64,000 bases of DNA from Oceaniferula marina (lineage in GTDB: Bacteria > Verrucomicrobiota > Verrucomicrobiia > Verrucomicrobiales > Akkermansiaceae), in assembly GCF_013391475.1 (NCBI RefSeq), contig NZ_JACBAZ010000002.1:773837-837836 (forward strand), given 5' to 3'. Positions 5,672-48,134 of the stretch are shown piece by piece (within the stretch, counting starts at the first letter, position 1; every line of letters begins with the position of its first letter). The position numbers and the translations under genes were made by a program. Below the pieces are notes generated by a model. That model did no database searches. It saw only the letters and a program-made list of their open reading frames with translations, and was not told where the DNA came from.

Positions 5672-5728
5672 CCGTCACCCTTCCTGACTGGGCCCCATAC
5701 TTATGTTGGCGCCGATGACGATGAAGCG

Positions 5729-5755
5729 TAAGTCCCATGCATCCCATGGGACTTA
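5729..5755. terminator. bidirectional hairpin between clpB and gatA
   Basis: TAAGTCCCATG and CATGGGACTTA form an 11-bp perfect stem with a five-base loop. It lies midway between the convergent ends of clpB and gatA and is followed by a T-rich stretch (TTGCTTTCTT) on the + strand. It probably ends transcription from both sides. Confidence 0.7.
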
Positions 5756-5774
5756 TTGCTTTCTTGGGGCTTGG

Positions 5775-7558: not shown

Positions 7559-7738
7559 GCGGGGAACCTGTCTGCTCGAACGGGAAGTTTCAAGTCTGGA
7601 TTCTTCCTGTGTTTGTCGGTGGCTTAAAACGAAACCGGGTAAAAATAAATGAAACACCTCGGCTGAGGATTGCGTTCTAGGTTACATGGGTGAATGGAGC
7701 TTCGTTCACCTGACCCCCGTGAATATTCAAAATATGAG

Positions 7739-32548: not shown

Positions 32549-33736
32549 ATGGATTATTTGCCGGGTAAAAACGATCGACGTTATAAGGTCGGGCTGTTGG
32601 CCCGCAGGGCGTTTCATTTTTATTCCCAGGACGTGGTTGCGGGCATGAGCGCGGCAAAGCTTGAGCCAGGCCAGGTGATCCTTCCCGTGGATTTACTCTA
32701 TCAGAGTGATGAGGACATCCGTCGGCTATTAACTGATTGTGATCTTGATGGATTGATTCTTGGTTTGGATCGGGGCCGTTACGAGCTGTACCGGGAATGT
32801 TTGCCTGATGTCCCGATGGTGAATGTGCACCCCGATATCCTCGCCAATGATATTCCGACGATTGCGATTGATCCACATGCCTTGGCGGTGGCTTCCGTGC
32901 GATATTTCAAAAGTCTCGGGGTGAGCCATGTGGCTAACTTGAGCACTTTTAATACAGAAGCTCAGGATCGGGTAAATCAGACGATGAAGGAATTAGTCGA
33001 AGCCGCCGGGGGCTCATTTACTTCCTATTCCATTCATGTTCCAGGCTTGGTTGCAAGCTACGAAAACACTCGAACGATGCCGGAGGTAGCAGAATTTGAA
33101 TCCTGGCTGGAAAACTTGAAGCGTCCGACGGGTGTGCTTTCAAGTGGTGGCTATACAGCCGTCATGCTTGCCCAGTCTGCGCAGCGTATGGGGATAAACA
33201 TTCCTGACGAATTGTCGATCCTGAGTCGCTCAGACGATAGCGTTTGTTTGTTTGCTGACCCTCCGGTCAGTAGTTTTCGAAGTATTGGGTCGGTGGTTGG
33301 CAAGATGGCCTTGGAGTTTTTGGGATCGTATTTCACCCATGGGCAGTGGCCTGAGACCTGCAGGGCTTTGCCGGTTCCTTCGGTGATCGAGCGCTATTCC
33401 ACGGGGGTTCCTGCCGGGATGAGTCGGAGTATGCACACGGCGGTTCATTATATCAGGCGGAATGCCTTGAAAGGGGTTACGGTGGACGATGTTCTGGCTG
33501 CGTGTCCCGGGCTCTCCCGAAGTCGCTTGTATCGTGAATTCGAGGCCAATTTTGGCCATAGCCCGGCACAGGAAATCACCCGCTTGAGGGTTGACGAGGC
33601 AAAGTACCAGCTACGCTTTACGGATAAATCCTTGGGTGAAATTGCCGAGTGGTGTTCGTTCAAGGGGGCTCCTCAATTTTCAACAGTTTTTGCCCGGGAA
33701 GTAGGCCAGCCCCCTGGCAGCTGGCGCAAATCCTGA
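32549..33736 (+). CDS. XylR-like regulator: periplasmic-binding-protein-like sensor plus AraC HTH
   Basis: 395 residues. Residues about 12-285 resemble a LacI/GalR-type sugar-binding core (KVGLLARRAFHFYSQDVVAG; NEGLISN-like DELSILSRSDDSVCLFADPP; SFRSIGSVVGKMALEFL), with no N-terminal LacI helix-turn-helix. Residues about 295-393 are an AraC-type DNA-binding domain (LSRSRLYREFEANFGHSPAQ; LRVDEAKYQLRFTDKSLGEIAEWCSF). This is the layout of XylR-type sugar sensors. It is the first gene before the surface/glycan cluster at 34-50.8 kb and the best candidate to regulate it. A possible operator lies directly upstream. The inducer is unknown. Confidence 0.88.
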   Translation: MDYLPGKNDRRYKVGLLARRAFHFYSQDVVAGMSAAKLEPGQVILPVDLLYQSDEDIRRLLTDCDLDGLILGLDRGRYELYRECLPDVPMVNVHPDILANDIPTIAIDPHALAVASVRYFKSLGVSHVANLSTFNTEAQDRVNQTMKELVEAAGGSFTSYSIHVPGLVASYENTRTMPEVAEFESWLENLKRPTGVLSSGGYTAVMLAQSAQRMGINIPDELSILSRSDDSVCLFADPPVSSFRSIGSVVGKMALEFLGSYFTHGQWPETCRALPVPSVIERYSTGVPAGMSRSMHTAVHYIRRNALKGVTVDDVLAACPGLSRSRLYREFEANFGHSPAQEITRLRVDEAKYQLRFTDKSLGEIAEWCSFKGAPQFSTVFAREVGQPPGSWRKS

Positions 33737-33830
33737 TTCGATTACGAGGCCTTCCCTTGTCTCATCAGCCCTTCTTCTTTTCTCCCTTCAAGGAGATAGA
33801 GTGATGGGGCTTTGCGCCTGCGAGGCGACT

Positions 33831-33850
33831 GGGACATATTGACAATATTT
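33831..33850 (+). promoter_or_regulatory. PEP-CTERM upstream motif, site 1
   Basis: GGGACATATTGACAATATTT. It contains the palindrome ATATTG-A-CAATAT and a GACA direct repeat, 128 bases before the start of the PEP-CTERM gene at 33967 counting from TTGACA. Confidence 0.55.
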
Positions 33851-33966
33851 ATAAATACACACCAAGCACCCTGAGGCGTATGGTCCGTTCATATAGCCAG
33901 TGATTGATATCAATATTTCAAATGATATCGGAACTGGCATTCACTAAACGAATAAATAATTGAAAT

Positions 33967-34590
33967 ATGAAAATACCACACATGTTACTCGTTACAGCCT
34001 TGGCCATAGGCTCAGGGCACGCTGCCGTTACCATTGCTGACTTTGGAGGCACAGCCCCGGTTTTAGATTCCGGAGATGTAGGAAACACCATATCTGGAGG
34101 TGGTGAGTTCGGTTGGAATGGAAGCGAAACGTTTGGACAAAGCTTCACTCTCGCTTCAGCTGGAACACTGGATTCCATCTATTTTGCATACAGAGGGAAG
34201 GGGAACAACGACACCCAAGTGATCACCGTCGCTGTGGATGGTACGGCCTACTCCGGAATAGCGCTTGATGGGAGCTCAATGAAGTCGGACGGATCCAAGA
34301 CGGATTACAATTGGGCAAGAATTGATTTTACAGGTGAGAACGTCTCATTGGATGCGGGTTCCCATCATTTTTTGTTAAGTATCACTCAATCTCCTGATAA
34401 TGATTGGGTTATTGCTCCACAATATTCTGGGGCTAATCCATATGGTGGGGGGAGAAGTCTGGGAAATATATTAAATGCTCCAGCTGAAGATTTGCTATTT
34501 GCGGTGTCCACATCTGCTGTTCCAGAGCCGAGTTCTGCAGCTCTGCTTGGATTGGGCGGGATAGCTCTTGTTCTTCGCCGGCGTAAGTAA
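33967..34590 (+). CDS. PEP-CTERM sorting-domain protein (module copy 1)
   Basis: 207 residues. Signal peptide MKIPHMLLVTALAIGSGHAA. The body is a small beta-rich domain with LDSIYFAYRGKGNNDTQ and a WVIAPQYSGANPYGGG patch. The C-terminus is a PEP-CTERM signal: AVPEPSSAALLGLGGIAL then a hydrophobic helix and RRRK. Such signals are processed by an exosortase and the protein is delivered to the outer surface or matrix. The gene at 45410 is a clear paralogue (shared GENVSLDAGS / GENITLNAGS, IAPQY / LAPMY and NPYGGG / NPYAGG). A terminator follows at 34674, so the hydrolase-like gene downstream may have its own promoter. Confidence 0.9.
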   Translation: MKIPHMLLVTALAIGSGHAAVTIADFGGTAPVLDSGDVGNTISGGGEFGWNGSETFGQSFTLASAGTLDSIYFAYRGKGNNDTQVITVAVDGTAYSGIALDGSSMKSDGSKTDYNWARIDFTGENVSLDAGSHHFLLSITQSPDNDWVIAPQYSGANPYGGGRSLGNILNAPAEDLLFAVSTSAVPEPSSAALLGLGGIALVLRRRK

Positions 34591-34673
34591 GGAAAAAATC
34601 AAGAGGAGAGTCGGGCTCAGCTGTCTGAAGGCTCTGAAAATACCGCCTCTTGTGTTTGGTGAATCAAAGAGGT

Positions 34674-34708
34674 GGCCGTTGTTCTATAGTGGAACGACGG
34701 CCATTTTT
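34674..34708 (+). terminator. terminator after PEP-CTERM copy 1
   Basis: GGCCGTTGTTC (34674-34684) pairs with GGAACGACGGCC (34691-34702) with one G-U, then a short T-run (ATTTTT). The loop is six bases. Confidence 0.75.
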
Positions 34709-34720
34709 AGCCAATGACAA

Positions 34721-36397
34721 ATGATATTGAATAAGCGTAAATTTAATCAGATGATAATCAGGAGAATGCGTTCGATCGTGATGGGTCTGTGGCTGGCTGG
34801 GTGGGTGGCTTGTAGCGGGGCAGAAGATTCGCAACAGGATCATTATATCCTGGATATGGTGCATCATAATCCGGGTGAGAAACTATATGAGACAGCTTAT
34901 GAGAAGCCGGAGGTGATCAAAAAGATGGGCTTCAACGGCAAGGTGTATTACCTGTTTGATTCCCCGACGCTGGCGATCAACTGGGAGTCGGTTGACCCTG
35001 AAATTTTCCCGGTGGGTTCCGCGGAGCGTGCATGGGTGGATGCCAAGGCCAAGCGGATCAAGCAGCAGCATGCGAGTTGTCGTGCCGCGGGTATTCAGAC
35101 GATGGCGATGGCTGACTTGGTGCTTTTCCCAAAAAAACTAATCAACAAGTATGGTTTGGAAAAAATTTACGGGGATCCGAGCCACCCGCAGACCCAGAAA
35201 TATTTACGTGCCCAGATTGGCGAAATGTTTGATCAGTTCCCGGATCTGGATGGGATTGTCGTGCGGATCGGAGAGACGTATTTGCATGATGCCCCGTATC
35301 ACCGGGGGCACATCCGGAATAAGACGAGCCCTGAAAAAACCATCATCCCTCTGATGCAGTTGCTCCGTGAGGAGGTGTGCGTGAAACGCAGCAAGGACCT
35401 GGTGTTTAGGACCTGGATGAGCTTTGACAAGAACCTGGCGGCTTATAAGCGCGTGAGTCAGGGGGTGGAGCCTCATGCCAAGCTGGTCATCGCGATCAAA
35501 CATTGCGAGGGCGATTTCCACCGGGCCAATCCATTTAGCAAGGTGATTGGCGAGGGGCGTCACAAGCAGCTGATTGAAGTCCAGTGTGCACGTGAATACG
35601 AGGGCAAGGGCGCTTACCCGAATTACATTGCACATGGCGTGATCGAGGGCTTTGAGGAATACCAGGACATGCCGGCGGGTAAGATGCGCAGTATTCGTGA
35701 ACTGGTCGAAACCAAGCCGGATCTGTTTGCCGGGATCTGGACTTGGACGCGCGGAGGGGGCTGGAACGGTCCCTATATCACGAACGAAATGTGGTGTGAT
35801 GTCAACGCCTGGGTGATGGCTCAGTGGGCTGCCGATCCATCGAAATCTGAGGAATTTTTGCTCGCCCGGTATGCCAAAGAAAGACTTCAACTCAAAGGGG
35901 TGGACATTACAAAATTTCGCAAACTGTGCCTCTTGTCGGCCGATGCCGTGCTCAGAGGACGCAATTCGATCCAGGGCGATATGAATCCGTGGTGGACACG
36001 GGACCAGGGGATCGGATACCCTCCCGCACATAAAGATGCGGAAAAGCAGCAACGCAACTTGAAACAGAAAGATGAGGCGATCCGTAAATGGAAAGAGGTG
36101 GTTTCATTGGCCGAGGGAATTCAGTGGGCCGATGAGGAAACGCGCGAATTTGCGGTGTCCTCATCCTACTACGGACTTTACCTCTACGAAATCTACCGGG
36201 CGTTGGTCTACCTTTCTGACGCTGAAGCGCGAAAAGACATAGCTGGAGTGAAGCAGTGGATTGGCCAGTACGACGCGGCTTGGGCACGATATCAGGCACT
36301 ACCCGAAAAATACAACAAGCTGTCCACTCTCTACACCAAGGAATTCAAACGACACATCAGAAACCATGCGGATACTAAAGTGAATAGCCTACGCTAG
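34721..36397 (+). CDS. secreted hydrolase-like protein, unassigned family (module copy 1)
   Basis: 558 residues. A signal peptide follows one of three in-frame ATGs (RSIVMGLWLAGWVACSGA). The body shares long conserved stretches with the gene at 46410: VHHNPGEKLYE, FPDLDGIVVRIGETYLHD, DLVFRTWMSFD, CAREYEGKGAYPNYIAHG, EGFEEYQDMPAGKMRS and WTWTRGGGWNGPYITNEMW. Alternating strands, acidic pairs (LDGIVVRIGE) and clustered Trp residues resemble a TIM-barrel glycoside hydrolase, loosely like alpha-glucuronidase-type or hexosaminidase-type barrels, but I cannot place it in a family. It follows PEP-CTERM copy 1 and precedes the CotH giant gene. Confidence 0.75.
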   Translation: MILNKRKFNQMIIRRMRSIVMGLWLAGWVACSGAEDSQQDHYILDMVHHNPGEKLYETAYEKPEVIKKMGFNGKVYYLFDSPTLAINWESVDPEIFPVGSAERAWVDAKAKRIKQQHASCRAAGIQTMAMADLVLFPKKLINKYGLEKIYGDPSHPQTQKYLRAQIGEMFDQFPDLDGIVVRIGETYLHDAPYHRGHIRNKTSPEKTIIPLMQLLREEVCVKRSKDLVFRTWMSFDKNLAAYKRVSQGVEPHAKLVIAIKHCEGDFHRANPFSKVIGEGRHKQLIEVQCAREYEGKGAYPNYIAHGVIEGFEEYQDMPAGKMRSIRELVETKPDLFAGIWTWTRGGGWNGPYITNEMWCDVNAWVMAQWAADPSKSEEFLLARYAKERLQLKGVDITKFRKLCLLSADAVLRGRNSIQGDMNPWWTRDQGIGYPPAHKDAEKQQRNLKQKDEAIRKWKEVVSLAEGIQWADEETREFAVSSSYYGLYLYEIYRALVYLSDAEARKDIAGVKQWIGQYDAAWARYQALPEKYNKLSTLYTKEFKRHIRNHADTKVNSLR

Positions 36398-36489
36398 CGG
36401 TACATGGTATGAAGTTTACGTGATGATTTTTTTCAGATGACCAGATGATGGACAGGACATGATTCGATACGCCTCGACGAAGTTGAGAA

Positions 36490-39400
36490 ATGCTTAGATT
36501 GCCAAATATAGTTTGGATTTTCATAAGCTGCTGTATAGCAGTTGATGCGGCTCCGGTGCGCTTTGATATCAACTCCGGAGGGAGCCCCACCCAGCCAGGG
36601 TGGGCGGCGGCTCCCGGCGGCCAGGGTAGTGATGGCACGGTGTCGATACGCATGGATCCTGTTGGTGCTGTGGTCTTGGATAGTCGTGACCGCGGGGATC
36701 TGAATGGAGGGGGAGCAGAAGCATCCATGTGGAACGATTTTGTGTTTGCCAGCGGCAGTGATTCCCCTGGGGAGGGGATCCGCATCACCCTCTCCGGTTT
36801 GCAGGCGAACTCCGAATATCCCATCACTGTATGGGCTTTTGATGATCTGACGGGGGGCAATGCCACCGGTTTTTGGAATGGAGAGCAATTGACCTTCCCG
36901 GATAACCCGGACCCTGCTTCCTTGGGGGATTACGCGGTTTCGTTTCATGTGACAAGCGATGCGCAAGGGGAAGTGGCTATTCAGGGCTTGGTCGGGTCGC
37001 CCCGGTCCTCGGGACACAATGTGTTTATCAATGGCTTGGAAGTGGGCGACAGGATCGCTGAAGATGCGCCTTATCATATCGAGCTTTCTTCAAGGCTCGT
37101 GAACAGAGCTGCCGCCATAGGCTCGCTTGTCGGGGTCTTGAGCAGCCAGGATCCGGATCAGGAGGATGGCTTCATCTACACATTTGCCCCGGGGGCGGGA
37201 GGAGATCATAATGGGCTCTTCAGCTTGCAGGGCAATACCTTGCTCACCGATCGCTCACTGCAGAGCGTCGGATCAACGTTGTCGTTGAAGATTCAAACCA
37301 CCGACCGGGAGGGGAATAGCTATGAGAAGGTGTTTGCTTTGGTGGTGATTGATGATGTGGATGATGATGGCTTGGACGATGTTTGGGAATTGGAGTATTT
37401 CCCCTCCCTGTCCGCAGCGCGTGGTAGTGACCATTCCGACGAGGATCTGTTGAACAATCTGGAGGAACAGGCGCTGGGGACCAATCCAACACTGAGTGAC
37501 ACGGATGCGGACGGCCTGGCCGACCATATGGAGAATGGGTCGGGGAAGTTTGTCGATGCGGACAATGCAGGTTCTGATCCTAATCTTGCGGACTCAGATG
37601 GAGACGGTCTTATGGATGGTGATGAGGTGAGTCCGGCCAATGGTTCGGTGACCGACCCCAACTTGAAGGATACGGATGGCGACATGTATGGGGACGCCTT
37701 GGAAATTATCCAGGGGACATCGCCTACCGATGCTGATCAGTTTCCAGATGTGGCGCTTGCACTGACGATCAATGAATTTGTTGCAAACAATCAAACCGGT
37801 GTGAAGGACGGATACGGGAACCGTGAGGATTGGATTGAGATATACAACCCGAATATCGTAGCTGTTAACCTTGTCGGCTACACCCTGACCGATGATGCAA
37901 GTGTGCTGAACAAGTGGACGTTTCCCGAGGTGCATATTCCTGCGGGTGGGTATTTGCTGGTGATGGCTTCCGGTAAAAATGAATGGGATCCTGGTGGATA
38001 CCTTCATACAAACTTCAAGCTGTCTGCCGCTGGTGAGTACCTCGCTTTGGTCCGGCCGCAAGGCCAGGTGATTGATGATCAGATGACCCCGGCTTTCCCC
38101 GAGCAGTTCGGAGATGTTTCTTATGCCCGCCATCCGAGTAGCGGAACCTGGGGTTATGCATCGACGCCGACCCCCAACCAGCTCAACAGCGCTCTTCATT
38201 TTGCGGGGGTGGTGAAAGATACCCGATTCTCTGTGGATCGTGGATTTTATGATCAGCCCTTTCATGTGACGATTGAGAGCGACACTCCGGGAGCGATGAT
38301 CCGCTACACGACGGATGGCAGTAAACCGAGTGCTAGTCATGGTTCGGTTTACACTGGAGCGATTTCGATTGAAACCACTACGACTCTGCGGGCTATTGCC
38401 GTGCGCAGTGGTTGGCTTTCGACTAATGTTGATTCCCATAGTTATTTTTTTGTGGCTGATGTGGTCAACCAACCGGCCGCCCCGCCGGGCTGGCCAGCTA
38501 CATGGACGACAGCTCCCGCTGATTATGCGATGGACCCGAGAGTTCGGGATGGGGCGTTGCTGGGGTACGGCGTGGACGACGCTCTGCTAGATATTCCCAC
38601 GGTTTCGATTACCATGGACCCTGATGATTTTTTGGGCAGCACCAACGGTATTTATTCGCACCCCTTAAATCGCTGGGAGAGGGAATGCTCAGTCGAATAT
38701 GTTTTACCCGATGGTGGCGAAGGCTTTCAGGAAAATTGCAAGGTGGAGATCCACGGTAATTCCAGCCGGAACCCGGCTCGCATGCAAAAGCATTCGATGC
38801 GACTAACCTTCAGTTCGGAGGTCGGCGTTCCGAAACTGGACTTCCCTTTGTTTGCCGACTCTCCGGTAAATGCATTCAACAAATTGGTCCTGCGAGCCTG
38901 TTTCACAGATTCATGGGGGCTTACGGGTTGGTCACCGAGTCGGTATCGCCCAAATGATTCCCAGTATCTCAGGGATGTGTGGATGAAAGAGAGTTTTCGG
39001 GACATGGGGCAGCCATCCAGTTATGGAAATTTCGTTCACGTCTATGTGAATGGCTTATACTTCGGATTGCATAATATGACGGAACGCTTGGAGGATGATT
39101 TCTTTGCTAGCCATTTGGGCGGGAAAGAAGAGGATTGGGAGGTCTATGCTGACTTCTCGAGTCCGGGTGACCATTGGCAGCAATTGATGAGTATAGCCAA
39201 TGGGGCCATTGAAACACCTGAGACGTATCAACAGATTCAGCCGTTCCTTGATATAGAGAATTATATCGATTACATGCTCCTGCATTTTTATGCGGATGCC
39301 GAAGACTGGCCGCATCACAATGGTTACGCCGCCGTGAACCCCGTATCCGGGGACGGCCGCTACCGCTTCTTTGTCTGGGATCAGGAAATTGCATTGGATA

Positions 39401-41577
39401 AGTTTTCCTGGAACCGCTATGATAATGGCACAGGAGGGGCGGCACCATTCCAAAGGTTGCGGCGCAATGAAGAGTTTTTGATGACTTTTGCTGACCGGGT
39501 TCAAAAGCATTTGTTCAATGGTGGAGCCCTGAGCGAAGAATCGAGTCGAGCTCGTTATAATGAAGTCGCCTCATGGATTGATAAGGCGATTGTAGCAGAA
39601 TCGGCGAGATGGGGAGATACCCAGGATACCACAGCTGGATCTGCATCTGTTAGCCAGCCGTCGCCATTGGACGACCTTGATCATGACGCTTATCCTCCGG
39701 CACCCCATGCTCCTAACATTTACTTTACACGTGAGGATTCTTGGTTGCTTGAGTTAGAGAATGTGTTGAACCATTATATTCCGATTTTACACGACCCCAA
39801 TGACCCAAGGTCGATTGTTCGGGAGTTGCGTGCGAACCAGTTGTTTCCCAGCTTGGATGCCCCTGTATTGAGCCAGCATGGCGGAGATATTGATCCGGGG
39901 TTTTTGTTGGACGTTACGGCTAAGCTTGGCGACATTTACTATACCTTGGATGGTTCTGATCCCAGACTGCCTGGGGGGGCGGTTGCCCCTGCTGCACAAT
40001 TTCTGGCGGGTGACTATGACCAGGTTGTCCTCGTTGCATTGGCATCTTCCGACTGGAAATACTTTGATAAGGGAGAAAGTCTGGGGGCGAGCGATATCAT
40101 CTACGGGCATGCTGATTATGATCAGACCGACTGGAAAAACCCTGATTTCGATGATGCCGCATGGAGTGAAGGGCCGGCTCCTTTGGGTTATGGGGTGATG
40201 ACCGGAGGGGTTATCAACACTGTGATTAGTTATGGTGGTGACGCGACAAATAAACATCTGACCAGTTACTTTCGTAAAACCTTTGATGTGGAAGAGGTTT
40301 CAGAAATTGAATCCTTGCGGATTCGCTTGCGTCGAGACGACGGGGCTATTGTGTATTTGAACGGACGTGAAATTGTCCGGAGTAACATGCCTGCCGGCGT
40401 GGTGACCTTTTCCAGTGTTGCCACCCAAGGGGTCGGTGGGAGTGATGAAAGTGCTCTGTTCGATTTTTCTTATGAGCTCAAGCCGGGAGAACTCCTTCGT
40501 GAGGGAAATGTGTTGGCCATTGAGGTGCATCAGTCCGGTGGGGGGAGCTCTGATCTGGGTGTCGATGTGGAAGTTGTCGGGGTCAAGCGGATGGCAGGGA
40601 GCCAATCACTTGAGCTGTTGGATTCGGCTCGTTTGCAAGCCCGGGCGTTTAGCGGGGGTGAGTGGTCGGCTCTTGTCCAGGCTGACTTTACGATGGGGCA
40701 GGCCGCGTCTGCCTCCAATTTGGTTGTGTCCGAAATCATGTATCATCCATTGGATGGAACGAGCTACGAGTATCTTGAATTGATGAATATTTCCTCGACC
40801 GCAGAAATTGACCTTTCGGGAGTGCGCTTTGCACTTGGTATTACTTATACCTTCCCTGAGGGGACGCGCCTTGCTCCGAGGGAGCGTTGTTTAGTGGTTG
40901 AGGACCGGGTTGCCTTTGAGCAATATTATGGTGCTGGCCACCCCGTGGTGGGTCAATATGAGGGCAAACTGGCCAACGGAGGAGAACAAATCATACTACT
41001 GGGTTCCGGGGGTGACACCATTCGTAACTTTAGCTATGGCGACCAGTTTCCATGGCCGGAATCAGCAGATGGAGGAGGGTATTCGTTAGTTTTGATTCAT
41101 CCTGAAAGCGCTCCTGACCATGGGTCTCCCATGAATTGGCGCGCGAGTGTCGCCCTTCACGGGACACCTTCAGGCAGTGATTCCTCATCGTTTGTGGGGG
41201 ACCCGGCCGAGGATCGTGACGGGGACGGATTGGGGGCGTTTCTGGAGTATGCGCTGGGGGGGAGTGATTTGATTTTTTCGCCGGACTCTTTGCCCCGTGC
41301 GGGTTATGGCGTATGGGATGATGGCTCCGAGACAGGCACCACGGCTGAGTACCTGACCTTTTCATTCACCTGCAATCTGGCTGCCGATGACGTGTTGTAT
41401 GCCCCTCAAATTTCTGAAGACTTGCGTGATTGGAGAGAGGGCGAGCCAGACCTGGTCTTGGTGGCGAGATTGAATCTAGGTGACGGAAGAGAGACGAGAA
41501 CATATCGGACTGCCGATCCCGAGGCATGGGCTGAAGGCTCGAAAAAATTTATCAGGCTACTGCTCCGTCAAAGATAA
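36490..41577 (+). CDS. giant secreted CotH/lamin-tail/TSP3 multidomain protein
   Basis: 1695 residues with a signal peptide (IVWIFISCCIAVDAAP). In order: an N-terminal beta domain (20-180) shared with the PEP-CTERM protein at 41764; a cadherin-like repeat (about 185-285); calcium-binding TSP3 loops (about 288-415: DVDDDGLDDVWE, DTDADGLADHMENG, DSDGDGLMDGDEV, DTDGDMYGDALE); a lamin-tail domain (about 420-560, INEFVANNQTG...DWIEIYNP); a chitobiase-C-like domain (575-655, IRYTTDGSKPSASHG); a CotH-kinase-like domain (about 735-1005, VEIHGNSSRNPAR, GLHNMTERLEDDF); a second chitobiase-C-like stretch (about 1123-1190); a galactose-binding jelly-roll (about 1200-1365); a second lamin-tail domain (about 1407-1555); and a final TSP3-like loop near 1573. 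CotH domains can phosphorylate spore-coat proteins; here an adhesion or glycan-binding role is likelier. There is no PEP-CTERM tail. Confidence 0.85.
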   Translation: MLRLPNIVWIFISCCIAVDAAPVRFDINSGGSPTQPGWAAAPGGQGSDGTVSIRMDPVGAVVLDSRDRGDLNGGGAEASMWNDFVFASGSDSPGEGIRITLSGLQANSEYPITVWAFDDLTGGNATGFWNGEQLTFPDNPDPASLGDYAVSFHVTSDAQGEVAIQGLVGSPRSSGHNVFINGLEVGDRIAEDAPYHIELSSRLVNRAAAIGSLVGVLSSQDPDQEDGFIYTFAPGAGGDHNGLFSLQGNTLLTDRSLQSVGSTLSLKIQTTDREGNSYEKVFALVVIDDVDDDGLDDVWELEYFPSLSAARGSDHSDEDLLNNLEEQALGTNPTLSDTDADGLADHMENGSGKFVDADNAGSDPNLADSDGDGLMDGDEVSPANGSVTDPNLKDTDGDMYGDALEIIQGTSPTDADQFPDVALALTINEFVANNQTGVKDGYGNREDWIEIYNPNIVAVNLVGYTLTDDASVLNKWTFPEVHIPAGGYLLVMASGKNEWDPGGYLHTNFKLSAAGEYLALVRPQGQVIDDQMTPAFPEQFGDVSYARHPSSGTWGYASTPTPNQLNSALHFAGVVKDTRFSVDRGFYDQPFHVTIESDTPGAMIRYTTDGSKPSASHGSVYTGAISIETTTTLRAIAVRSGWLSTNVDSHSYFFVADVVNQPAAPPGWPATWTTAPADYAMDPRVRDGALLGYGVDDALLDIPTVSITMDPDDFLGSTNGIYSHPLNRWERECSVEYVLPDGGEGFQENCKVEIHGNSSRNPARMQKHSMRLTFSSEVGVPKLDFPLFADSPVNAFNKLVLRACFTDSWGLTGWSPSRYRPNDSQYLRDVWMKESFRDMGQPSSYGNFVHVYVNGLYFGLHNMTERLEDDFFASHLGGKEEDWEVYADFSSPGDHWQQLMSIANGAIETPETYQQIQPFLDIENYIDYMLLHFYADAEDWPHHNGYAAVNPVSGDGRYRFFVWDQEIALDKFSWNRYDNGTGGAAPFQRLRRNEEFLMTFADRVQKHLFNGGALSEESSRARYNEVASWIDKAIVAESARWGDTQDTTAGSASVSQPSPLDDLDHDAYPPAPHAPNIYFTREDSWLLELENVLNHYIPILHDPNDPRSIVRELRANQLFPSLDAPVLSQHGGDIDPGFLLDVTAKLGDIYYTLDGSDPRLPGGAVAPAAQFLAGDYDQVVLVALASSDWKYFDKGESLGASDIIYGHADYDQTDWKNPDFDDAAWSEGPAPLGYGVMTGGVINTVISYGGDATNKHLTSYFRKTFDVEEVSEIESLRIRLRRDDGAIVYLNGREIVRSNMPAGVVTFSSVATQGVGGSDESALFDFSYELKPGELLREGNVLAIEVHQSGGGSSDLGVDVEVVGVKRMAGSQSLELLDSARLQARAFSGGEWSALVQADFTMGQAASASNLVVSEIMYHPLDGTSYEYLELMNISSTAEIDLSGVRFALGITYTFPEGTRLAPRERCLVVEDRVAFEQYYGAGHPVVGQYEGKLANGGEQIILLGSGGDTIRNFSYGDQFPWPESADGGGYSLVLIHPESAPDHGSPMNWRASVALHGTPSGSDSSSFVGDPAEDRDGDGLGAFLEYALGGSDLIFSPDSLPRAGYGVWDDGSETGTTAEYLTFSFTCNLAADDVLYAPQISEDLRDWREGEPDLVLVARLNLGDGRETRTYRTADPEAWAEGSKKFIRLLLRQR

Positions 41578-41681
41578 ATGGATTGATTGCAGCCTGCATC
41601 GGTATGTCGGGTCAAGGTAGGTACTTGGTTTGTATGTGGGCACGAATCCTTGCTTATCTCCGGACATAGATAATCAAATTT

Positions 41682-41700
41682 GGGACAAATCGACAATTCT
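41682..41700 (+). promoter_or_regulatory. PEP-CTERM upstream motif, site 2
   Basis: GGGACAAATCGACAATTCT, followed by TTGAGATGG. The TCGACA element at 41690 lies 74 bases before the ATG at 41764. It shares the GACAAAT/GACAATT direct repeat with the other sites. Confidence 0.55.
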
Positions 41701-41763
41701 TTGAGATGGCCGTAATGCCAAATGCTGTCTAATTGGTATATCGTTCTCAACCTAATGAAATGA

Positions 41764-42555
41764 ATGATGAAACGTATGAAAAATAGTAGCAAAGGTTCCC
41801 TTGTGACGGGATTGATTTCGGTCAGCATCCTGGGTTTGCCGCTTATTCAGGCTGCGACCCTCAAAGTTGATTTCAATGTGAACGGCGGATCATCTGGGAC
41901 TGCGTCTGGCTACACTTCGATCAGTGGCTCCAACGGATCTGATCTTTCCGCTACCAGTTTGAATTTGGGTTCGGATTCTTTTCAGGTGTCGATCGATGCC
42001 AGGAATAGTGATGGCAGTGATGACGGCAATACACGCTGGATTGACCGAGAGAATCCGGGCACCGGTGTGTGGTCTGGAGCCGCAGCCAACCCCCTTTCGC
42101 AAGACTGGGTTTCAACCGACGACTTCCGGGATTATCTGGTCCTTACCTTCAGTGGTCTGGAGGCAGGCACCTACGACCTCACCACGATTCATGGAGATTG
42201 GAACGGGAATACTGTGACACGGATAGATGTGCAAGGTAGCGTCAACGGTGGAACCTCCTACATTAACCTTCAGGATGGGCCGGTTTACGACGCTCGTCAG
42301 GGGCCAGGCGGGAGTACCGTTGGGCCGGCAACGGTGACAATTGATAATACGTTTACGGCGAATGGGGCGGATGATGTGATTTTCCTTTTCCATGCGGGCG
42401 CCAATAAATTCGGTGACGCCGGGAATACCGGCTCCAGCAATGTGAACCGCTTTGTGGCACTCAACGGATTTGAATTAAGCAGTGTGCCTGAACCTTCGTC
42501 GACGGTATTGCTTGGCCTCGGTGGTTTGGCTTTTGTTATGTATCGACGCAAGTAA
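41764..42555 (+). CDS. PEP-CTERM sorting-domain protein with malectin-like body
   Basis: 263 residues, or slightly fewer if started at a later in-frame ATG (41767, 41776). Signal sequence LVTGLISVSILGLPLIQAA. The body VDFNVNGGSSGTASGY, then FSGLEAGTYDLTTIHG and NRFVALNGFEL, resembles the N-terminal domain of the CotH giant protein just upstream (VRFDINSGGSPTQPGW; LSGLQANSEYPITVW), suggesting a shared carbohydrate-binding-like fold. The C-terminus is PEP-CTERM: SVPEPSSTVLLGLGGLAF, hydrophobic, YRRK. A strong terminator follows. Confidence 0.9.
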   Translation: MMKRMKNSSKGSLVTGLISVSILGLPLIQAATLKVDFNVNGGSSGTASGYTSISGSNGSDLSATSLNLGSDSFQVSIDARNSDGSDDGNTRWIDRENPGTGVWSGAAANPLSQDWVSTDDFRDYLVLTFSGLEAGTYDLTTIHGDWNGNTVTRIDVQGSVNGGTSYINLQDGPVYDARQGPGGSTVGPATVTIDNTFTANGADDVIFLFHAGANKFGDAGNTGSSNVNRFVALNGFELSSVPEPSSTVLLGLGGLAFVMYRRK

Positions 42556-42589
42556 ATCATCTGCCGTTTAAAATTTCATTGTGTGTTTA

Positions 42590-42623
42590 GCGTCCGGATC
42601 CTGAGTGATCCGGGCGCTTTTTT
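42590..42623 (+). terminator. terminator after the second PEP-CTERM gene
   Basis: GCGTCCGGATC (42590-42600) and GATCCGGGCGC (42607-42617) form an 11-bp stem with one G-U and a six-base loop, then TTTTTT. Confidence 0.88.
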
Positions 42624-42676
42624 GTCTTCGCTGCATGGGTGTGAGATGAACTGTGAGTCAAACATTGAGTCTCTAT

Positions 42677-42696
42677 GAGACAAATTGACAATTTAT
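42677..42696 (+). promoter_or_regulatory. PEP-CTERM upstream motif, site 3
   Basis: GAGACAAATTGACAATTTAT, with the perfect palindrome AAATTG-A-CAATTT, followed by CAAGATGG. TTGACA at 42685 lies 95 bases before the ATG at 42780. Confidence 0.6.
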
Positions 42697-42779
42697 CAAG
42701 ATGGACTCTCAAGGGGAAATGTCATTTATCGTATGTAGAGCATCATAATGCTTATGAATCAAAATTAGAACATCATATT

Positions 42780-43613
42780 ATGAAATCGTTGATGACCTGT
42801 ATCGCAATGACAGCGTTGGCTGGCTTATGCCAAGCTGCGTCGTATTTTTCTGTAGTCGATGGGCAGAGCCCGTTGGCCTATTACCGGCTGGACAATTTGA
42901 GTGACAATGAAGGAGGTAGTAGCTTAACTTTGAATGGTTGCAGTGTAGGTGTATCCACTGGGCATGCTCTAACGGGTTCAGGTGGTTACTCCGGATTTCT
43001 AGATTCTAATACTTGGGCGACGGCGCCTGGCAACACTAGCGGCACATTGACTGGGGTCGCCACCGGCTGGAGCAGCGATCAAGGCTCGTTTTCATATTGG
43101 ATGTTCAATGACGGCACTGGAGATGGCACACAGACCAATCTCATTTCCCGCAGGACTGGCGGAGCCTCAAGCTTCAGCGGGTCCGGGGATGGCATGATCG
43201 GCGCATACACCCGAACAAACGGAACCGCCGGAATTAAATTCGACAATATTGGATTAGATTCTGGCTCCGCAGTTCTGACAGCAGACGCCTGGAACCATCT
43301 GGCTTTCACTTGGGACCGGAATACCGGGACGGGCGACGGAACCATCACTGTTTATGTCAACGGATCGGTCGTAGCTTCCACGACCACGGCGACCTTTGAT
43401 TCCTTCACGATCAACGAGTCACGTTTCGGCAAGGAAATGGTTGCAAGCAGCACGCGTAAGTTTAAGGGAGGGGTGGACGAGCTTGCGATTTGGAACCGAA
43501 CTCTGAGCCCAACGGAGGTCTCGGCCCAGTACACCGCGGCTGTTCCCGAACCCAGCTCGATCAGCTTGATCGCCCTTGGCGGCTTGGCTTTGGTGTATCG
43601 TCGACGTAGGTAG
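42780..43613 (+). CDS. PEP-CTERM protein with LamG-like (concanavalin A fold) domain
   Basis: 277 residues from the ATG at 42780. The open frame back to 42675 would read through the conserved upstream motif and add 35 residues before the signal peptide, so the later start (MKSLMTCIAMTALAGLCQAA) is preferred. The body is LamG-like: LAYYRLDNLSDNEGG near the start, then FSYWMFNDGTGDG, WNHLAFTWDRNTGTGDG, ITVYVNGSVVAST and FKGGVDELAIWNRTLSPTEV, the usual strand pattern of a carbohydrate-binding jelly roll. The C-terminus is a PEP-CTERM signal (AVPEPSSISLIALGGLAL, YRRRR). The sulfatase gene follows 69 bases later. Confidence 0.9.
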   Translation: MKSLMTCIAMTALAGLCQAASYFSVVDGQSPLAYYRLDNLSDNEGGSSLTLNGCSVGVSTGHALTGSGGYSGFLDSNTWATAPGNTSGTLTGVATGWSSDQGSFSYWMFNDGTGDGTQTNLISRRTGGASSFSGSGDGMIGAYTRTNGTAGIKFDNIGLDSGSAVLTADAWNHLAFTWDRNTGTGDGTITVYVNGSVVASTTTATFDSFTINESRFGKEMVASSTRKFKGGVDELAIWNRTLSPTEVSAQYTAAVPEPSSISLIALGGLALVYRRRR

Positions 43614-43682
43614 AAACGTCATTTTCTCATGTCATCTTTTATTTCATAGGCTGAGTATAGCACGTCGATTGTTTGGTTTGAT

Positions 43683-45188
43683 ATGTGTGTTTCCGCAATC
43701 GGTTTGCCTATGCGCGTTTTGCTATGCTCAGCCTATTTTTGTTTTCTCTTGGCCAGCGCATGGGGGGGGCAGCGGTCTCCCAACATTCTCTTTGTCTACC
43801 TTGACGACTTGGGGTATGGGGATGTGAGCTGTTATAACCCGGAATCCAAAATACAAACTCCGCATATGGATCGTCTTGCCAAAGAGGGAATTCGGTTCAC
43901 GGATGCACATACCCCCGCTGCGATTTGCGGGCCAAGTCGATATGGTGTGATGACTGGGCGGTATCCATGGCGTCGTGGTAAGGATGGTCTCGGGAACGGT
44001 GCCAAATTCAGGGATACCTTTATCGAACATGGTCGCCTTACTCTTGCCTCACTTCTCAAGAAGAAGGGGTATAATACTGCGCAAATCGGCAAGTGGGGCA
44101 TGCGGCATCATTATTCGAAGGCTCTCAAACCAGGGGCAAAGCCAGGCACTCGGGATGCGTATGATTTCCCACGTAAACGATTGCTGGGATCTCAACGATT
44201 CGGCTTTGATTACTCGTGGTGTATGACTCACTTGTTTCCATTGGATGGGGAGAAACAGATCAGTGTGTTCTGCAAACACCAGATGGAAAACGGTTTGCCC
44301 GTCGACGCCAAACTCAAGCACTCTAATGCCCGCAACTGGCTTCCTGATAGCGCCAAAAAAGTGGTGGAGTATATCGAGGCCTATGCCCAAAAAGAGAAGG
44401 TAAATCAATTTGGTATCCAGCCTAAACATCCTTTTTTTATTTACTGGGATCCGCCAAGCCCTCACGAACCCATTGTGCCTCACAGTAGGTTTCTCGGTAA
44501 GTCCGGAGCCGGAGCATACGGTGATTTTATTGTTGAAATCGACCATTACCTTGGTGAGGTCCTCAAGGCCCTTGATCGTCATGAACTCTCGGAGAATACG
44601 CTGGTAATTCTGTCATCAGACAATGGTCCGGAAAAAAGTGCTTACAGTAGGATTAAACAATATCAACATGACAGTATGGGGGGGCTGCGTGGTGTGAAGC
44701 GCGACCTATGGGAAGGTGGTCACCGCGTTCCATTCATCCTCCGTTGGCCCGGGAGAATCAAAGCAGGTGGTACCGAGGGTGGATTGGTCTGTCTGACAGA
44801 CATCCTGGCCACGTTTGCTGATATCACAGAACAGGCGTTGCCTCAGGACGCTGGCGAAGACAGCATAAGCTTGCTTCCTCAGCTCTACGGTCAGACCGGG
44901 TCCAAGCAAGTAAGGAGCCATGTCATTCATCACAGCCATCGAGGTCACTATGCCCTACGGTATGGGGACTGGCTTTTTATCGATGCCAAAACTGGGGATG
45001 TTAGCGGTGAACCTAAGTGGTTTTCCAAAGATCGAGGTGTTCAGCATCATCAACATCAAGCAGCGTTGTATCACCTTAAGGACGATAAAAAACAATCGAC
45101 CAACCTCTACGGATCACATCCGGAGAAGGCCCGGCAAATGAAGCAAAAACTCAACCAATTGAAGGCAAAGCCTCTCAGCCGGAACTGA
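43683..45188 (+). CDS. secreted type I sulfatase (formylglycine, Cys-type)
   Basis: 501 residues. Signal sequence VLLCSAYFCFLLASAWGGQ. The metal-binding start NILFVYLDDLGYGDVSCYNP and the modification site AAICGPSRYGVMTGRYPW (C-G-P-S-R) mark a Cys-type sulfatase needing a formylglycine-generating enzyme, not seen in this window. Further ligand segments are DPPSPHEPIVPH, VILSSDNGPEKS and GLRGVKRDLWEGGHRVPF. It would remove sulfate esters from a glycan; regiospecificity cannot be read from sequence alone. It sits between PEP-CTERM genes in the surface cluster, with a weak reversed resemblance to the shared motif just upstream. Confidence 0.94.
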   Translation: MCVSAIGLPMRVLLCSAYFCFLLASAWGGQRSPNILFVYLDDLGYGDVSCYNPESKIQTPHMDRLAKEGIRFTDAHTPAAICGPSRYGVMTGRYPWRRGKDGLGNGAKFRDTFIEHGRLTLASLLKKKGYNTAQIGKWGMRHHYSKALKPGAKPGTRDAYDFPRKRLLGSQRFGFDYSWCMTHLFPLDGEKQISVFCKHQMENGLPVDAKLKHSNARNWLPDSAKKVVEYIEAYAQKEKVNQFGIQPKHPFFIYWDPPSPHEPIVPHSRFLGKSGAGAYGDFIVEIDHYLGEVLKALDRHELSENTLVILSSDNGPEKSAYSRIKQYQHDSMGGLRGVKRDLWEGGHRVPFILRWPGRIKAGGTEGGLVCLTDILATFADITEQALPQDAGEDSISLLPQLYGQTGSKQVRSHVIHHSHRGHYALRYGDWLFIDAKTGDVSGEPKWFSKDRGVQHHQHQAALYHLKDDKKQSTNLYGSHPEKARQMKQKLNQLKAKPLSRN

Positions 45189-45280
45189 CCCTGATTTACA
45201 CGGCTCGGCATGGCTTCTCCCGCATCTTCCTCTTGTGGCAATGAGAATACGTGTCGTTTTTATCAGAAAATTTGGAACGT

Positions 45281-45299
45281 GAAACAAATTGACAATACG
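45281..45299 (+). promoter_or_regulatory. PEP-CTERM upstream motif, site 4
   Basis: GAAACAAATTGACAATACG, containing AATTG-A-CAAT. TTGACA at 45289 lies 121 bases before the start of the PEP-CTERM gene at 45410. The remaining bases of the 221-base spacer after the sulfatase show nothing else clear. Confidence 0.55.
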
Positions 45300-45409
45300 C
45301 TGATATGTTTCTTTAGCGTTTCGTGTGTATTATTGGGGTGATTGTCAGCGCAATATAGCGCCACTGTCATTAGCCATGATGGCAATCTCAACAATTAATC
45401 ACGAAAGAA

Positions 45410-46063
45410 ATGAACATAAAAACGACATTAAACATTCTATTGACGGCGTTTGCCGTAGGCAATGCCAGTGCGGCACTGACCGCAGCAGATGTGACAGACA
45501 ACGGAGGGACCGCGCCGATGATCGGGGCGTCCGATACTGGATATACCGGGGCCACCACTAGTCGATTCGGCTGGGATGTTGAGAGGTTTACGCAGACCTT
45601 CACCCTAGCGGAGGAGCGTGTGCTGGATTCCATATACATCGCCTACAATGCATTTGAAAATGGCGATACGCTGACTATGACCCTGGAGGTGAACGGCACC
45701 AACTACACGGGAGCCGGCATCACCTTGGATGGAAACAATTTCAGCGGTGTTGGCTCCGACGGCAACGGCTCGCCAGTATACTGGATGCAGTTTGATCTGT
45801 CCGGAGAAAACATCACGCTCAATGCGGGTTCAAACAACTTTGCGATGGATGGGATCTCCAATACGGGAAATAGCTGGGCACTCGCGCCGATGTATGGCCT
45901 GAATAACAACCCATATGCCGGAGGCTCACTAACAGGTACAGGTATTTCAGGTGGGAATGATGATCTGGCATTCGCTGTGACTACTACGGCCGTCCCCGAG
46001 CCAAGCTCTGCTGCCTTGATCGGCCTTGGGAGCTTTACGCTGCTTCTCCGCCGCCGCCAATAG
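45410..46063 (+). CDS. PEP-CTERM sorting-domain protein (module copy 2)
   Basis: 217 residues. Signal peptide MNIKTTLNILLTAFAVGNASA. It is a paralogue of the protein at 33967: TADVTDNGGTAPMIGASDTG compares with TIADFGGTAPVLDSGDVG, and the central GENITLNAGSNNF and LAPMYGLNNNPYAGG segments match too. The C-terminus is PEP-CTERM (AVPEPSSAALIGLGSFTL, RRRQ). It is followed by a terminator, then a discoidin-domain remnant and the second hydrolase-like copy. Confidence 0.9.
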   Translation: MNIKTTLNILLTAFAVGNASAALTAADVTDNGGTAPMIGASDTGYTGATTSRFGWDVERFTQTFTLAEERVLDSIYIAYNAFENGDTLTMTLEVNGTNYTGAGITLDGNNFSGVGSDGNGSPVYWMQFDLSGENITLNAGSNNFAMDGISNTGNSWALAPMYGLNNNPYAGGSLTGTGISGGNDDLAFAVTTTAVPEPSSAALIGLGSFTLLLRRRQ

Positions 46064-46409: not shown

Positions 46410-48134
46410 ATGATGACTCAGTATACTGGTAAGACAGCTCCTATGGATGTGCGATTGGATTACGTTCACCATAACCCAGGTGAGACACGTTTCGAAAGTG
46501 CCTATCTGGATCCCACCTATTTGAATGGCTTAGGCTATACTGGTCAGGTCCTCGACCGCCATGTTCAGGCTGCTGTTAGTTTAAGGTCGATGTTTCCCGA
46601 TCTGTGGGACTCGCACCCGGAGGGACTCTTCTGGACAAGGGACTACGCCAAACGGTTGCAAGAAGATCTCAAGCGAACCAAAGAGCAAGGGCTGAGTTGT
46701 CTGGCGTGGACGGATTTTGTGGTGTTGCCCAAGGTGTTAGTTGATCGTTATCAGGAGGAGTTGACCACAGACGTCGAAGTGGACGACCCGTTTGACGTCA
46801 AAGGAAAGGTTCGACCCAACATTCAGAGTTCCTTTACGCAGGATGTTCTGCGGACACAGATTCGCGAAATTTTTGAAACGTTCCCCGACCTTGACGGTCT
46901 GGTGGTTCGAGTGGGAGAAACCTACCTTCACAATCTTCCTCACCATACGGGTGGTGATCCCATTGTTGATGGTGTGGAAAGTCATGTGACCTTGTTGCAG
47001 CTCCTGCGTGAGGAGATTTGTGTTAAACATGGAAAGCAACTGATTTACCGGACATGGATGAGTGGGATTGACGAGCGCGCCCAGCCATACGTCGAGGCAA
47101 CCAACAGGATCGAGCCTCATCCCGGACTGTATTTTGTGATCAAACATTGTATCGGGGACTATCACCGAACCCATCCGTTCAGTCCTCCGCTTGGCAAAGG
47201 AAATCATAAGCAATTGGTTGAGATCCAGTGCCAGCGCGAATATGAGGGTAAAGGAGCGTTCCCCAATTTTATTGCAGCAGGGGTGATTGACGGTTTTGAA
47301 GAGTATGCACATCTGATGGCACCGGGTGAACTTCGCAGTGTTCGCCAGTTAATAGGCCTGCCCCAGACGGCTGGTCTTTTGACTTGGTCCCGCGGAGGAG
47401 GATGGAAAGGCCCCTACATCAAGGATGAGTTGTGGTGTGATATCAACGCCCGCGTCTTGCTAAAGTGGGCCCAGAACCCCGGCTTGCCGACCGAACAGGT
47501 GACCGAGTCGGTATTAGAGGATCTGGGATTTGACTCTCCCTCGCGTGAGCTCTTGGTTGAAATACTGAACCTATCTGCCATGGCTGTGGTTCGGGGAGTA
47601 ACCGGGATGCGCGGAGATATCAATACGCTCTGGTCCCGCGACGAGTATTTCGGTGGTTTCGAGCAAGATTCCCCATTTATGAAGCAATCGGTGGAGTCGC
47701 TGATCGAGGCGGGGAATGTCGAGCCGGCTTTGGCCGAGGCGGCTGAGGCCGTTTGCCTATGGAAGCGCATTGAGTCTTTGTCAGAGCAGGTGAATCATGC
47801 GGACCCGTCGCGGCAGGCCTTTATCCGGACCTCATGTACCTACGGTCGTATTTACCAGCAGGTGATCCATGCGGGTTGGACCGTCATCTTGCTGGGGGAG
47901 CAGGCTACGCGCTCGCATACGAGGGATGACAAGCGTATCAGAAAAGCCCTTGAGGATTATCACCGCGCGTGGAGTGAGTGGCGGGAGTTGTCCCAGCGTC
48001 CGGAATGCGCGACGATTTATAATGAAAGCTATTGCCATTATGTGGCTGATCACGGGATGGTGCCTGTTGATGGGATGGGAGCTTCGGTAAAACGGTACAG
48101 CCGTATGTTGGAATTGATGGTGGAGCATGTGTAA
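46410..48134 (+). CDS. hydrolase-like protein without signal peptide (module copy 2)
   Basis: 574 residues, paralogous to the protein at 34721 over nearly its whole length (DYVHHNPGETRFESAY, FPDLDGLVVRVGETYLHNLP, QLIYRTWMSGID, CQREYEGKGAFPNFIAAG, DGFEEYAHLMAPGELRSVRQ, LTWSRGGGWKGPYIKDELW). Unlike copy 1 it has no signal peptide: homology begins 17 residues after the ATG, and an in-frame stop lies 18 bases upstream. If the start is right, one copy would act outside and the other inside the cell. The family is unassigned; a TIM-barrel glycosidase is my best guess. It follows the discoidin remnant. Confidence 0.75.
   Translation: MMTQYTGKTAPMDVRLDYVHHNPGETRFESAYLDPTYLNGLGYTGQVLDRHVQAAVSLRSMFPDLWDSHPEGLFWTRDYAKRLQEDLKRTKEQGLSCLAWTDFVVLPKVLVDRYQEELTTDVEVDDPFDVKGKVRPNIQSSFTQDVLRTQIREIFETFPDLDGLVVRVGETYLHNLPHHTGGDPIVDGVESHVTLLQLLREEICVKHGKQLIYRTWMSGIDERAQPYVEATNRIEPHPGLYFVIKHCIGDYHRTHPFSPPLGKGNHKQLVEIQCQREYEGKGAFPNFIAAGVIDGFEEYAHLMAPGELRSVRQLIGLPQTAGLLTWSRGGGWKGPYIKDELWCDINARVLLKWAQNPGLPTEQVTESVLEDLGFDSPSRELLVEILNLSAMAVVRGVTGMRGDINTLWSRDEYFGGFEQDSPFMKQSVESLIEAGNVEPALAEAAEAVCLWKRIESLSEQVNHADPSRQAFIRTSCTYGRIYQQVIHAGWTVILLGEQATRSHTRDDKRIRKALEDYHRAWSEWRELSQRPECATIYNESYCHYVADHGMVPVDGMGASVKRYSRMLELMVEHV

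Follow-up and report, generated by a model that had tools for sequence, protein, structure and literature searches.

A Repeated Motif in Two Paralogous Loci of Oceaniferula marina

A sequence motif is repeated upstream of four genes encoding PEP-CTERM proteins in a 64,000-nucleotide stretch of the genome of Oceaniferula marina (this whole stretch is hereafter referred to as the window). The repeated motif is real, and it is found again in a second locus on another contig (C4) of the same genome (G000; 5.07 Mb, 88 contigs), giving nine sites, S1–S9. It is quite probable that the motif represents the operator of two paralogous and local XylR-like activators, R1 and R2, of sulfated-polysaccharide loci, where the link between protein and DNA is one that we infer.

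The search for GACAAATTGACAAT, allowing at most one mismatch, retrieved the plus-strand positions 33833, 41684, 42679, and 45283 of the window, followed by PEP-CTERM gene starts at 33967, 41764, 42780, and 45410, respectively; the PEP-CTERM domain of Pfam was present in all four genes. Since the open reading frame (ORF) listed as starting at 42675 would run over the motif, the third gene probably starts at the ATG at 42780. The four sites, all on the plus strand, are S1 (33830..33858, no mismatches to the extended pattern described below), S2 (41681..41709), S3 (42676..42704), and S4 (45280..45308), all of them delimited by pattern search and alignment. With a 29-column matrix built from the nine sites, S1–S4 included, they scored 34.8, 39.7, 35.9, and 32.7, respectively, and the next-best match on either strand of the window scored 12.7. 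The initial annotation of this DNA had placed the motif before all four PEP-CTERM genes of the window, and this is borne out by the matrix scores (32.7–39.7 vs. 12.7) and by the domain content of the four genes; a fifth, weaker copy that it had reported before position 16184 scored only 6.2 and ranked 16th in the window.

The 14-mer GACAAATTGACAAT at up to three mismatches gave 9 matches in the window versus 7.7 expected; since this does not separate it from chance, the significance must rest on the full motif. A blind 20-mer search on the upstream regions of window 28–51.5 kb ranked the motif first (48, whereas 15 resampled sets reached at most 44; z 8.2). In a stricter version of the search, where the regions end before the start codon, S3 was lost and the lead was small (44, with 43 as the highest value over 20 resampled sets; z 3.5).

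The Candidate Regulators and the Second Locus

The gene for R1 (32549..33736, plus strand), the proposed motif binder, ends 93 bases (stop codon to site) before S1. R1 contains a LacI-type sugar-binding domain (Peripla_BP_3, PF13377, at 117–285) and an AraC-type HTH_18 domain (PF12833, at 316–394), and the same domain pair was found by Pfam in R2. A profile of R1 and R2 compared with Escherichia coli XylR (4fe7) covered positions 10–400 of 404 (E 8e-29). R2, encoded on C4, is the only close paralogue of R1 in the genome (42%, E 1.8e-88, among the best 32 of 53 candidates scored), while the regulator next closest to R2, out of the 34 extracted, has an E value of 2.6e-35. The genome has 50 matches to HTH_18; the proteins were extracted for 34 of them and the 17 long ones were aligned. 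The DNA-binding domains of R1 and R2 share 46% identity, and both include the segment SRS(R/K)LYREF, absent from the other 15 long regulators aligned. On the basis of what is known of the AraC family, we take this segment to be the recognition helix of the first helix-turn-helix (HTH).

The R2 gene, like that of R1, is followed by the motif. Site S5, TGGGACAAATTGACATG, is located 64 bases past the R2 stop codon and is followed by a PEP-CTERM gene; S6, TGGGACAAATGGTAATA, which was spotted by eye, lies after this gene and before a second PEP-CTERM gene. The other three C4 sites precede a gene for a GH141-type (glycoside hydrolase family 141) protein with a laminin-G domain (S7, in the stretch L013), a gene for a 1223-amino-acid protein (S8, L017), and a GH141-type gene with an F5/8C domain (S9, L012, one mismatch to the extended pattern), at distances of about 130–175 bases, the start codons being uncertain. 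Thus, three of the five C4 sites are followed by non-PEP-CTERM genes, two of them GH141-type. The proteins of the window and of the C4 locus share 44% (GH141-type), 48% (574-amino-acid protein), and 33% (sulfatase) identity and, judging from these sequences, the two loci are paralogous. A blind search on the C4 upstream regions (L012 from base 8001, L013, and L017 3001–12000, joined) ranked the motif first, through S7, S8, S5, and S9 (49, against at most 43 over 20 resampled sets; z 10.9); since this set was picked because R2 and motif matches are located there, the test shows the strength of the motif rather than an unprompted discovery.

As a separate observation, the 1223-amino-acid protein encoded after S8 (L017:6116-9787, minus strand of C4) has an N-terminal match to the Verru_Chthon cassette protein A (22 bits vs. 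a cut-off of 332); the operator may reach a Verru_Chthon-type cassette too.

Structure of the Putative Operator

The consensus of the nine sites is TGRGACAWATNGACAW-N7-ANAY, and all nine are oriented towards their gene. When the first eight sites are aligned, three invariant columns lie outside the 16-mer, namely T0, A23, and A25; when S9 is added, the invariant columns are T0, G1, A4, C5, A6, A8, T9, G11, A14, A23, and A25. S9 was retrieved by means of a pattern containing T0, A23, and A25, so that it is no test of those columns. The block TGRGACA reappears in a weaker form (tKARAYR) 21 bases downstream; the repeat of this 7-base block has a z of 3.1 (3.09) at offset 21, versus −0.3 and −1.3 at offsets 20 and 22. 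A version of the extended pattern mis-spaced by one base recovered none of the nine sites. In the case of AraC, the half-sites araI1 and araI2 are about 21 bases apart. The putative operator of O. marina can be read, from its sequence, as an AraC-like direct repeat with half-sites spaced by 21 bases. A shared −10-like position fits best at offset 60 (z 3.1 among 94 offsets); a −10 box located there would set the second half-site beside the −35 region, which is the arrangement of class II activation, and of this the position is a faint hint.

This anatomy departs in several respects from the initial annotation, which counted distances from a TTGACA element and saw a near palindrome. TTGACA is no invariant core, as S2 reads TCGACA and the hexamer is intact in five of the nine sites; a palindromic operator was discarded, since in the alignment positions 10 and 16 vary across the sites, with T in five and four of them, respectively. 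The extension AAGATGG after the second and third sites does exist (GAGATGG/AAGATGG); however, it is part of the conserved second block.

Distribution of the Motif in the Genome and in Related Organisms

The degenerate 16-mer has seven exact matches in the 5.07 Mb of the genome, six of which fall inside the two loci, and the pattern extended with the additional columns has eight, seven of which fall inside them. The 55 related genomes searched, which total about 224 Mb on rounded sizes, gave no exact match to the extended pattern. When one mismatch was allowed, the matches were 12 in O. marina versus 0 for a reversed control, and 17 versus 12 for the control in the other 55 genomes. The extended pattern was fitted to these very sites and, therefore, these figures show its specificity and do not represent an independent test. 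Among the genomes searched, both the regulator and the cluster of operator sites were seen in this species only.

A few further matches were considered, some of which were set aside. An exact match to the 16-mer at C1:524951 lacks T0 and A25, lies between the stop codon of secDF and a hairpin resembling a terminator, and was taken as chance, as was an exact match to the extended pattern inside an opposite-strand ORF (C3:4455). The match at C4:752648, with one mismatch to the 16-mer, is within a coding ORF (among the matches listed). The extended pattern with one mismatch has four matches in the genome: S9, C4:401922, which is within an ORF and was likewise rejected, C3:251305, and C15:23638, about 65 bases before an ORF of 342 amino acids. 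One PEP-CTERM gene outside both loci (C8:118440) has a middling score of 15.1.

Genes of the Window Locus and Proposed Mechanism

All the window genes described here are on the plus strand. The first gene after S1 encodes the PEP-CTERM protein 1 (33967..34590, PF07589). It is followed by two genes that might belong to the same operon: a putative glycoside hydrolase (34721..36397), whose match to the GH67 middle domain is below the cut-off and which is 39% identical to the product of the C4 gene L013:16-1752, and a 1695-amino-acid protein (36490..41577) with CotH, lamin-tail, and Fn3-associated domains according to Pfam. The PEP-CTERM protein 2 (41764..42555, Pfam) is encoded after S2. S3 precedes the PEP-CTERM protein 3, which has a laminin-G-like domain (42780..43613; scanned as 42675-43613, the probable start being the ATG after the operator) and might share an operon with a sulfatase (43683..45188, PF00884). 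After S4, the PEP-CTERM protein 4 (45410..46063, Pfam) is followed by a 574-amino-acid protein with no family match (46410..48134, 48% to L013:16-1752), a putative member of the same operon, and by a GH141-type beta-helix enzyme with an F5/8 type C domain (48441..50801, 44% to L012:15288-17633). For this last gene, the window contains no separate site; its C4 counterpart L012:15288-17633 has S9.

These data suggest the following scheme. The conserved motif would be the upstream and better conserved portion of an operator of about 27–29 bases, to which R1 (and its paralogue R2 on C4) would bind. The LacI-type domain might sense a sugar freed from a sulfated, probably fucose-containing polysaccharide, and the AraC-type domains of a dimer would sit on the tandem half-sites, the second one beside the −35 region. 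In this way, RNA polymerase would be brought to promoters without a good −35 box, switching on putative operons for PEP-CTERM proteins, the sulfatase, GH141-type enzymes, and CotH/GH67-like proteins. According to this scheme, the PEP-CTERM genes bear the site because they head the transcription units of the window. The presence of GH141-type enzymes and sulfatases points to a sulfated fucose-containing polysaccharide as the probable substrate: one report describes an endo-fucanase activity for GH141 (PMC12786026), and others record this family in Akkermansiaceae associated with macroalgae and in the Verrucomicrobiota that accompany diatom blooms (PMC13174399, PMC8857213).

Elsewhere in the window, the region 7694-10186 encodes an 830-amino-acid protein with the Pfam middle domain of hydrazine synthase alpha (E 1e-26); hydrazine production is not expected here.

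Points Against the Proposed Operator and Alternative Explanations

Several observations weigh against an operator bound by R1 and R2. The regulators at C3:343234 and C2:619513 share 42% and 41% identity with R1 in the DNA-binding domain, and thus domain identity alone is no sharp divider. A counterpart of R1 was found in none of 57 related genomes at 1e-40 nor, at 1e-45, in any of 383 further genomes from the class (about four candidates scored per genome), so that the comparison stays within one genome; the search for R1 orthologues yielded one distant locus, 34% identical over the DNA-binding domain. No site above 12.7 is present elsewhere in the window, hence none before the R1 gene itself. 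As regards the operator, offset 8 gives a repeat of the same strength (z 3.15) as offset 21, and therefore the half-site layout is not unique; offsets 2, 10, and 19 also reach 2.4–2.7. Offset 60 is simply the best mean of the 94 offsets, with offset 21 as runner-up at 2.9. S6, with GGTAATA, deviates from the consensus, and the pattern that retrieved S9 includes the extra columns. Moreover, a blind search on the L012 stretch alone (20 kb) gave a different 20-mer (z 3.4), and 15 other stretches harboring AraC-HTH regulators yielded no comparable operator in a blind motif search. One of these, L119 (C2:485000-504999), reached a z of 6.1, due to near-identical stretches at gene starts.

In L119, 20 bases spanning an ATG (AACAACATGAACAAACAGAA) are identical between the genes 3624-6014 and 7949-9367; a PEP-CTERM gene and a further XylR-like regulator are also encoded in L119. 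A different kind of repeat is found in L132:7597-10471 (C3:333000-352999), where hairpin-like sequences of the form AAAAAGCG(T/A)(T/A)CGCTTTTT lie before two divergent ORFs; perhaps they are a shared terminator or operator, or one palindrome read on both strands.

Among the alternatives to R1 and R2 as binders, the one that survives best, although it is unlikely, is that the motif is the operator of a different, unlinked regulator serving the same two loci, for example a further AraC/LacI protein or a factor of the CRP type recognizing the palindrome ATTGACAAT. The link of R1 and R2 with the motif is positional only, in a genome with 50 HTH_18 matches, and ATTGACAAT is indeed palindromic at S1, S3, and S4. 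However, the palindrome is not maintained across the sites, given the variation at positions 10 and 16, the uniform orientation of the nine sites is not needed for a palindrome, and the motif directly follows the genes of both close paralogues.

An even less probable explanation is that the sites are ordinary housekeeping promoters, with TTGACA as the −35 box. The hexamer is intact at S1, S3, S4, S5, and S8, and in S4, S6, and S7 a −10 box at a suitable spacing scores slightly above zero; nevertheless, the hexamer is broken in the remaining four sites, and at the −10 positions that would fit it (offsets 29–37, i.e., a spacing of 15–19 bases) the mean score is negative throughout, the best score being negative in six of the nine sites. 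The conserved span, from T0 to A25, also exceeds a −35 box. The initial annotation had already doubted a plain −35 box, which the present analysis does not support either: fitting −10 boxes are mostly absent, TTGACA is often not intact, and the conservation extends well past it.

The same annotation had gone further and proposed a dedicated regulator or sigma factor for surface proteins. A genome-wide motif, or a sigma factor, dedicated to the PEP-CTERM/exosortase system and akin to PrsR/sigma-54 of Proteobacteria can hardly be maintained. The genome harbors at least 150 PEP-CTERM genes (the best 150 of 237 first-look candidates scored), 149 of which gave an upstream region, one gene having no start in its short frame. 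PEP-CTERM genes follow six of the nine sites, and a slight excess of weak matches was observed before such genes (scores of at least 10 in 37/149 vs. 23.4 expected; of at least 12 in 10 vs. 7.0). Yet, with a matrix built from the four window sites, a score of at least 16 was reached in 5/149 regions, that is, the four training sites and one on C4 (S6, a further PEP-CTERM-associated site on C4, is too divergent for this matrix), and the 145 regions outside the window had a median of 7.8, versus 7.7 for random 550-base segments drawn from the retrieved DNA. The other three sites precede non-PEP-CTERM genes. The best protein of the PrsR family scored 402.8 bits, below the curated cut-off of 502.6, and TGGC-N7/8-TGC was not found within 300 bases of any of the four window starts; looser GG-N9/11-GC strings do occur before all four. 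For a motif common to all PEP-CTERM genes, this is the kind of outcome that the initial annotation itself had named as speaking against its proposal. A dedicated regulator is supported, a plausible candidate being encoded beside S1, but not one for surface proteins at large; the earlier observation is sound and partly confirmed, its scope was wrong, and its interpretation is partly supported.

A single exosortase match (C2:395889) was found on contigs C1–C23 of this 97%-complete assembly, against the at least 150 PEP-CTERM genes; apparently, a large sorting load falls on one exosortase.

Lastly, a similarity left over from a recent duplication of genes together with their upstream regions can practically be dismissed, since, even though the PEP-CTERM proteins 1 and 4 look related by eye and paralogues are common to the two loci, an ungapped 180-base alignment of the nine sites has 13 columns kept in at least eight of them, all within T0–A25, and the genes after the sites are diverse (PEP-CTERM with and without laminin-G, GH141-type, 1223-amino-acid protein).

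Comparison with Known Systems and Biological Meaning

The preferred reading, i.e., an operator bound by local XylR-like activators, finds its closest parallel in E. coli XylR and Vibrio XylRA, whose domain order (AraC-type DNA binding and LacI/GalR-type ligand domain) is that of R1, with similarity over the whole length. The Vibrio XylRA sites are described as direct repeats rich in A and T, located upstream of several genes in a polysaccharide locus (PMC12125979), and thus offer a precedent for the XylR-type control of such a locus. Unlike the XylR system, the predicted targets here are PEP-CTERM, sulfatase, and GH141-type genes; the xylose isomerase and xylulokinase families were found by Pfam in none of the 40 window ORFs scanned, the search being limited to the window. 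In the PrsK/PrsR–sigma-54 system (Haft et al. 2006), a conserved DNA element likewise precedes PEP-CTERM genes; it consists of a sigma-54 site and an activator site, and that report describes it in Proteobacteria only (PMC1569441). In O. marina, by contrast, there is no such element, no PrsR above the cut-off, and few PEP-CTERM genes are involved. In the polysaccharide utilization loci of Bacteroides, the regulators (hybrid two-component systems with AraC-type domains, SusR) are located beside their targets and direct-repeat motifs are described (PMC3878776); here, a one-component XylR-like protein is present, no match to SusC/SusD emerged from the scan of 40 window ORFs, and the sites are followed by PEP-CTERM genes. 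TIGR04094, according to the name of the model an AraC-family regulator by YSIRK-type sorted antigens, is likewise an AraC-type regulator beside a gene for a sorted surface protein. Its match to R1 and R2 concerns the DNA-binding domain only, with 27.0 and 44.7 bits, respectively, versus a cut-off of 200. Both the sorting system and the phylum differ from those considered here.

The control of PEP-CTERM genes outside Proteobacteria was left open in the 2006 report (PMC1569441), and no paper was found joining PEP-CTERM to AraC and polysaccharide utilization or to a conserved motif of Verrucomicrobia, most of the subscription literature lying outside the search. The proximity between HTH_18 and PEP-CTERM genes was analyzed over the whole O. 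marina genome: of the 50 HTH_18 genes, 15 have a listed PEP-CTERM gene at no more than 2 kb, versus 5.5 expected, a value reached in 0/2000 rotations; at 1.5 kb the genes are 10 versus 4.3 (20/2000), and at 5 kb 21 versus 11.6 (3/2000). This suggests that locus-bound regulators are commonly located beside PEP-CTERM genes in this genome. A bolder idea, which we regard as possible but doubtful, is that the PEP-CTERM/exosortase repertoire of this lineage is split into many private, substrate-specific regulons, with each polysaccharide locus having its own AraC/XylR-type sensor that would activate the PEP-CTERM proteins and the enzymes of that locus jointly. The count at 2 kb speaks for this idea. 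A clear shared operator at two loci only speaks against it, as does the genome G031 of the same family, where two pairs within 3 kb were counted by eye, with 17 PEP-CTERM and 35 HTH_18 matches. If the idea were true, PEP-CTERM proteins would be the components that handle glycans within the loci, with a role like that of the surface glycan-binding proteins of the Bacteroides loci. Within the two loci described here, a small subset of the PEP-CTERM genes can now be assigned a candidate regulator, together with an operator of defined sequence and nine predicted sites. The findings also suggest that some PEP-CTERM proteins may belong functionally to the degradation of sulfated polysaccharides.

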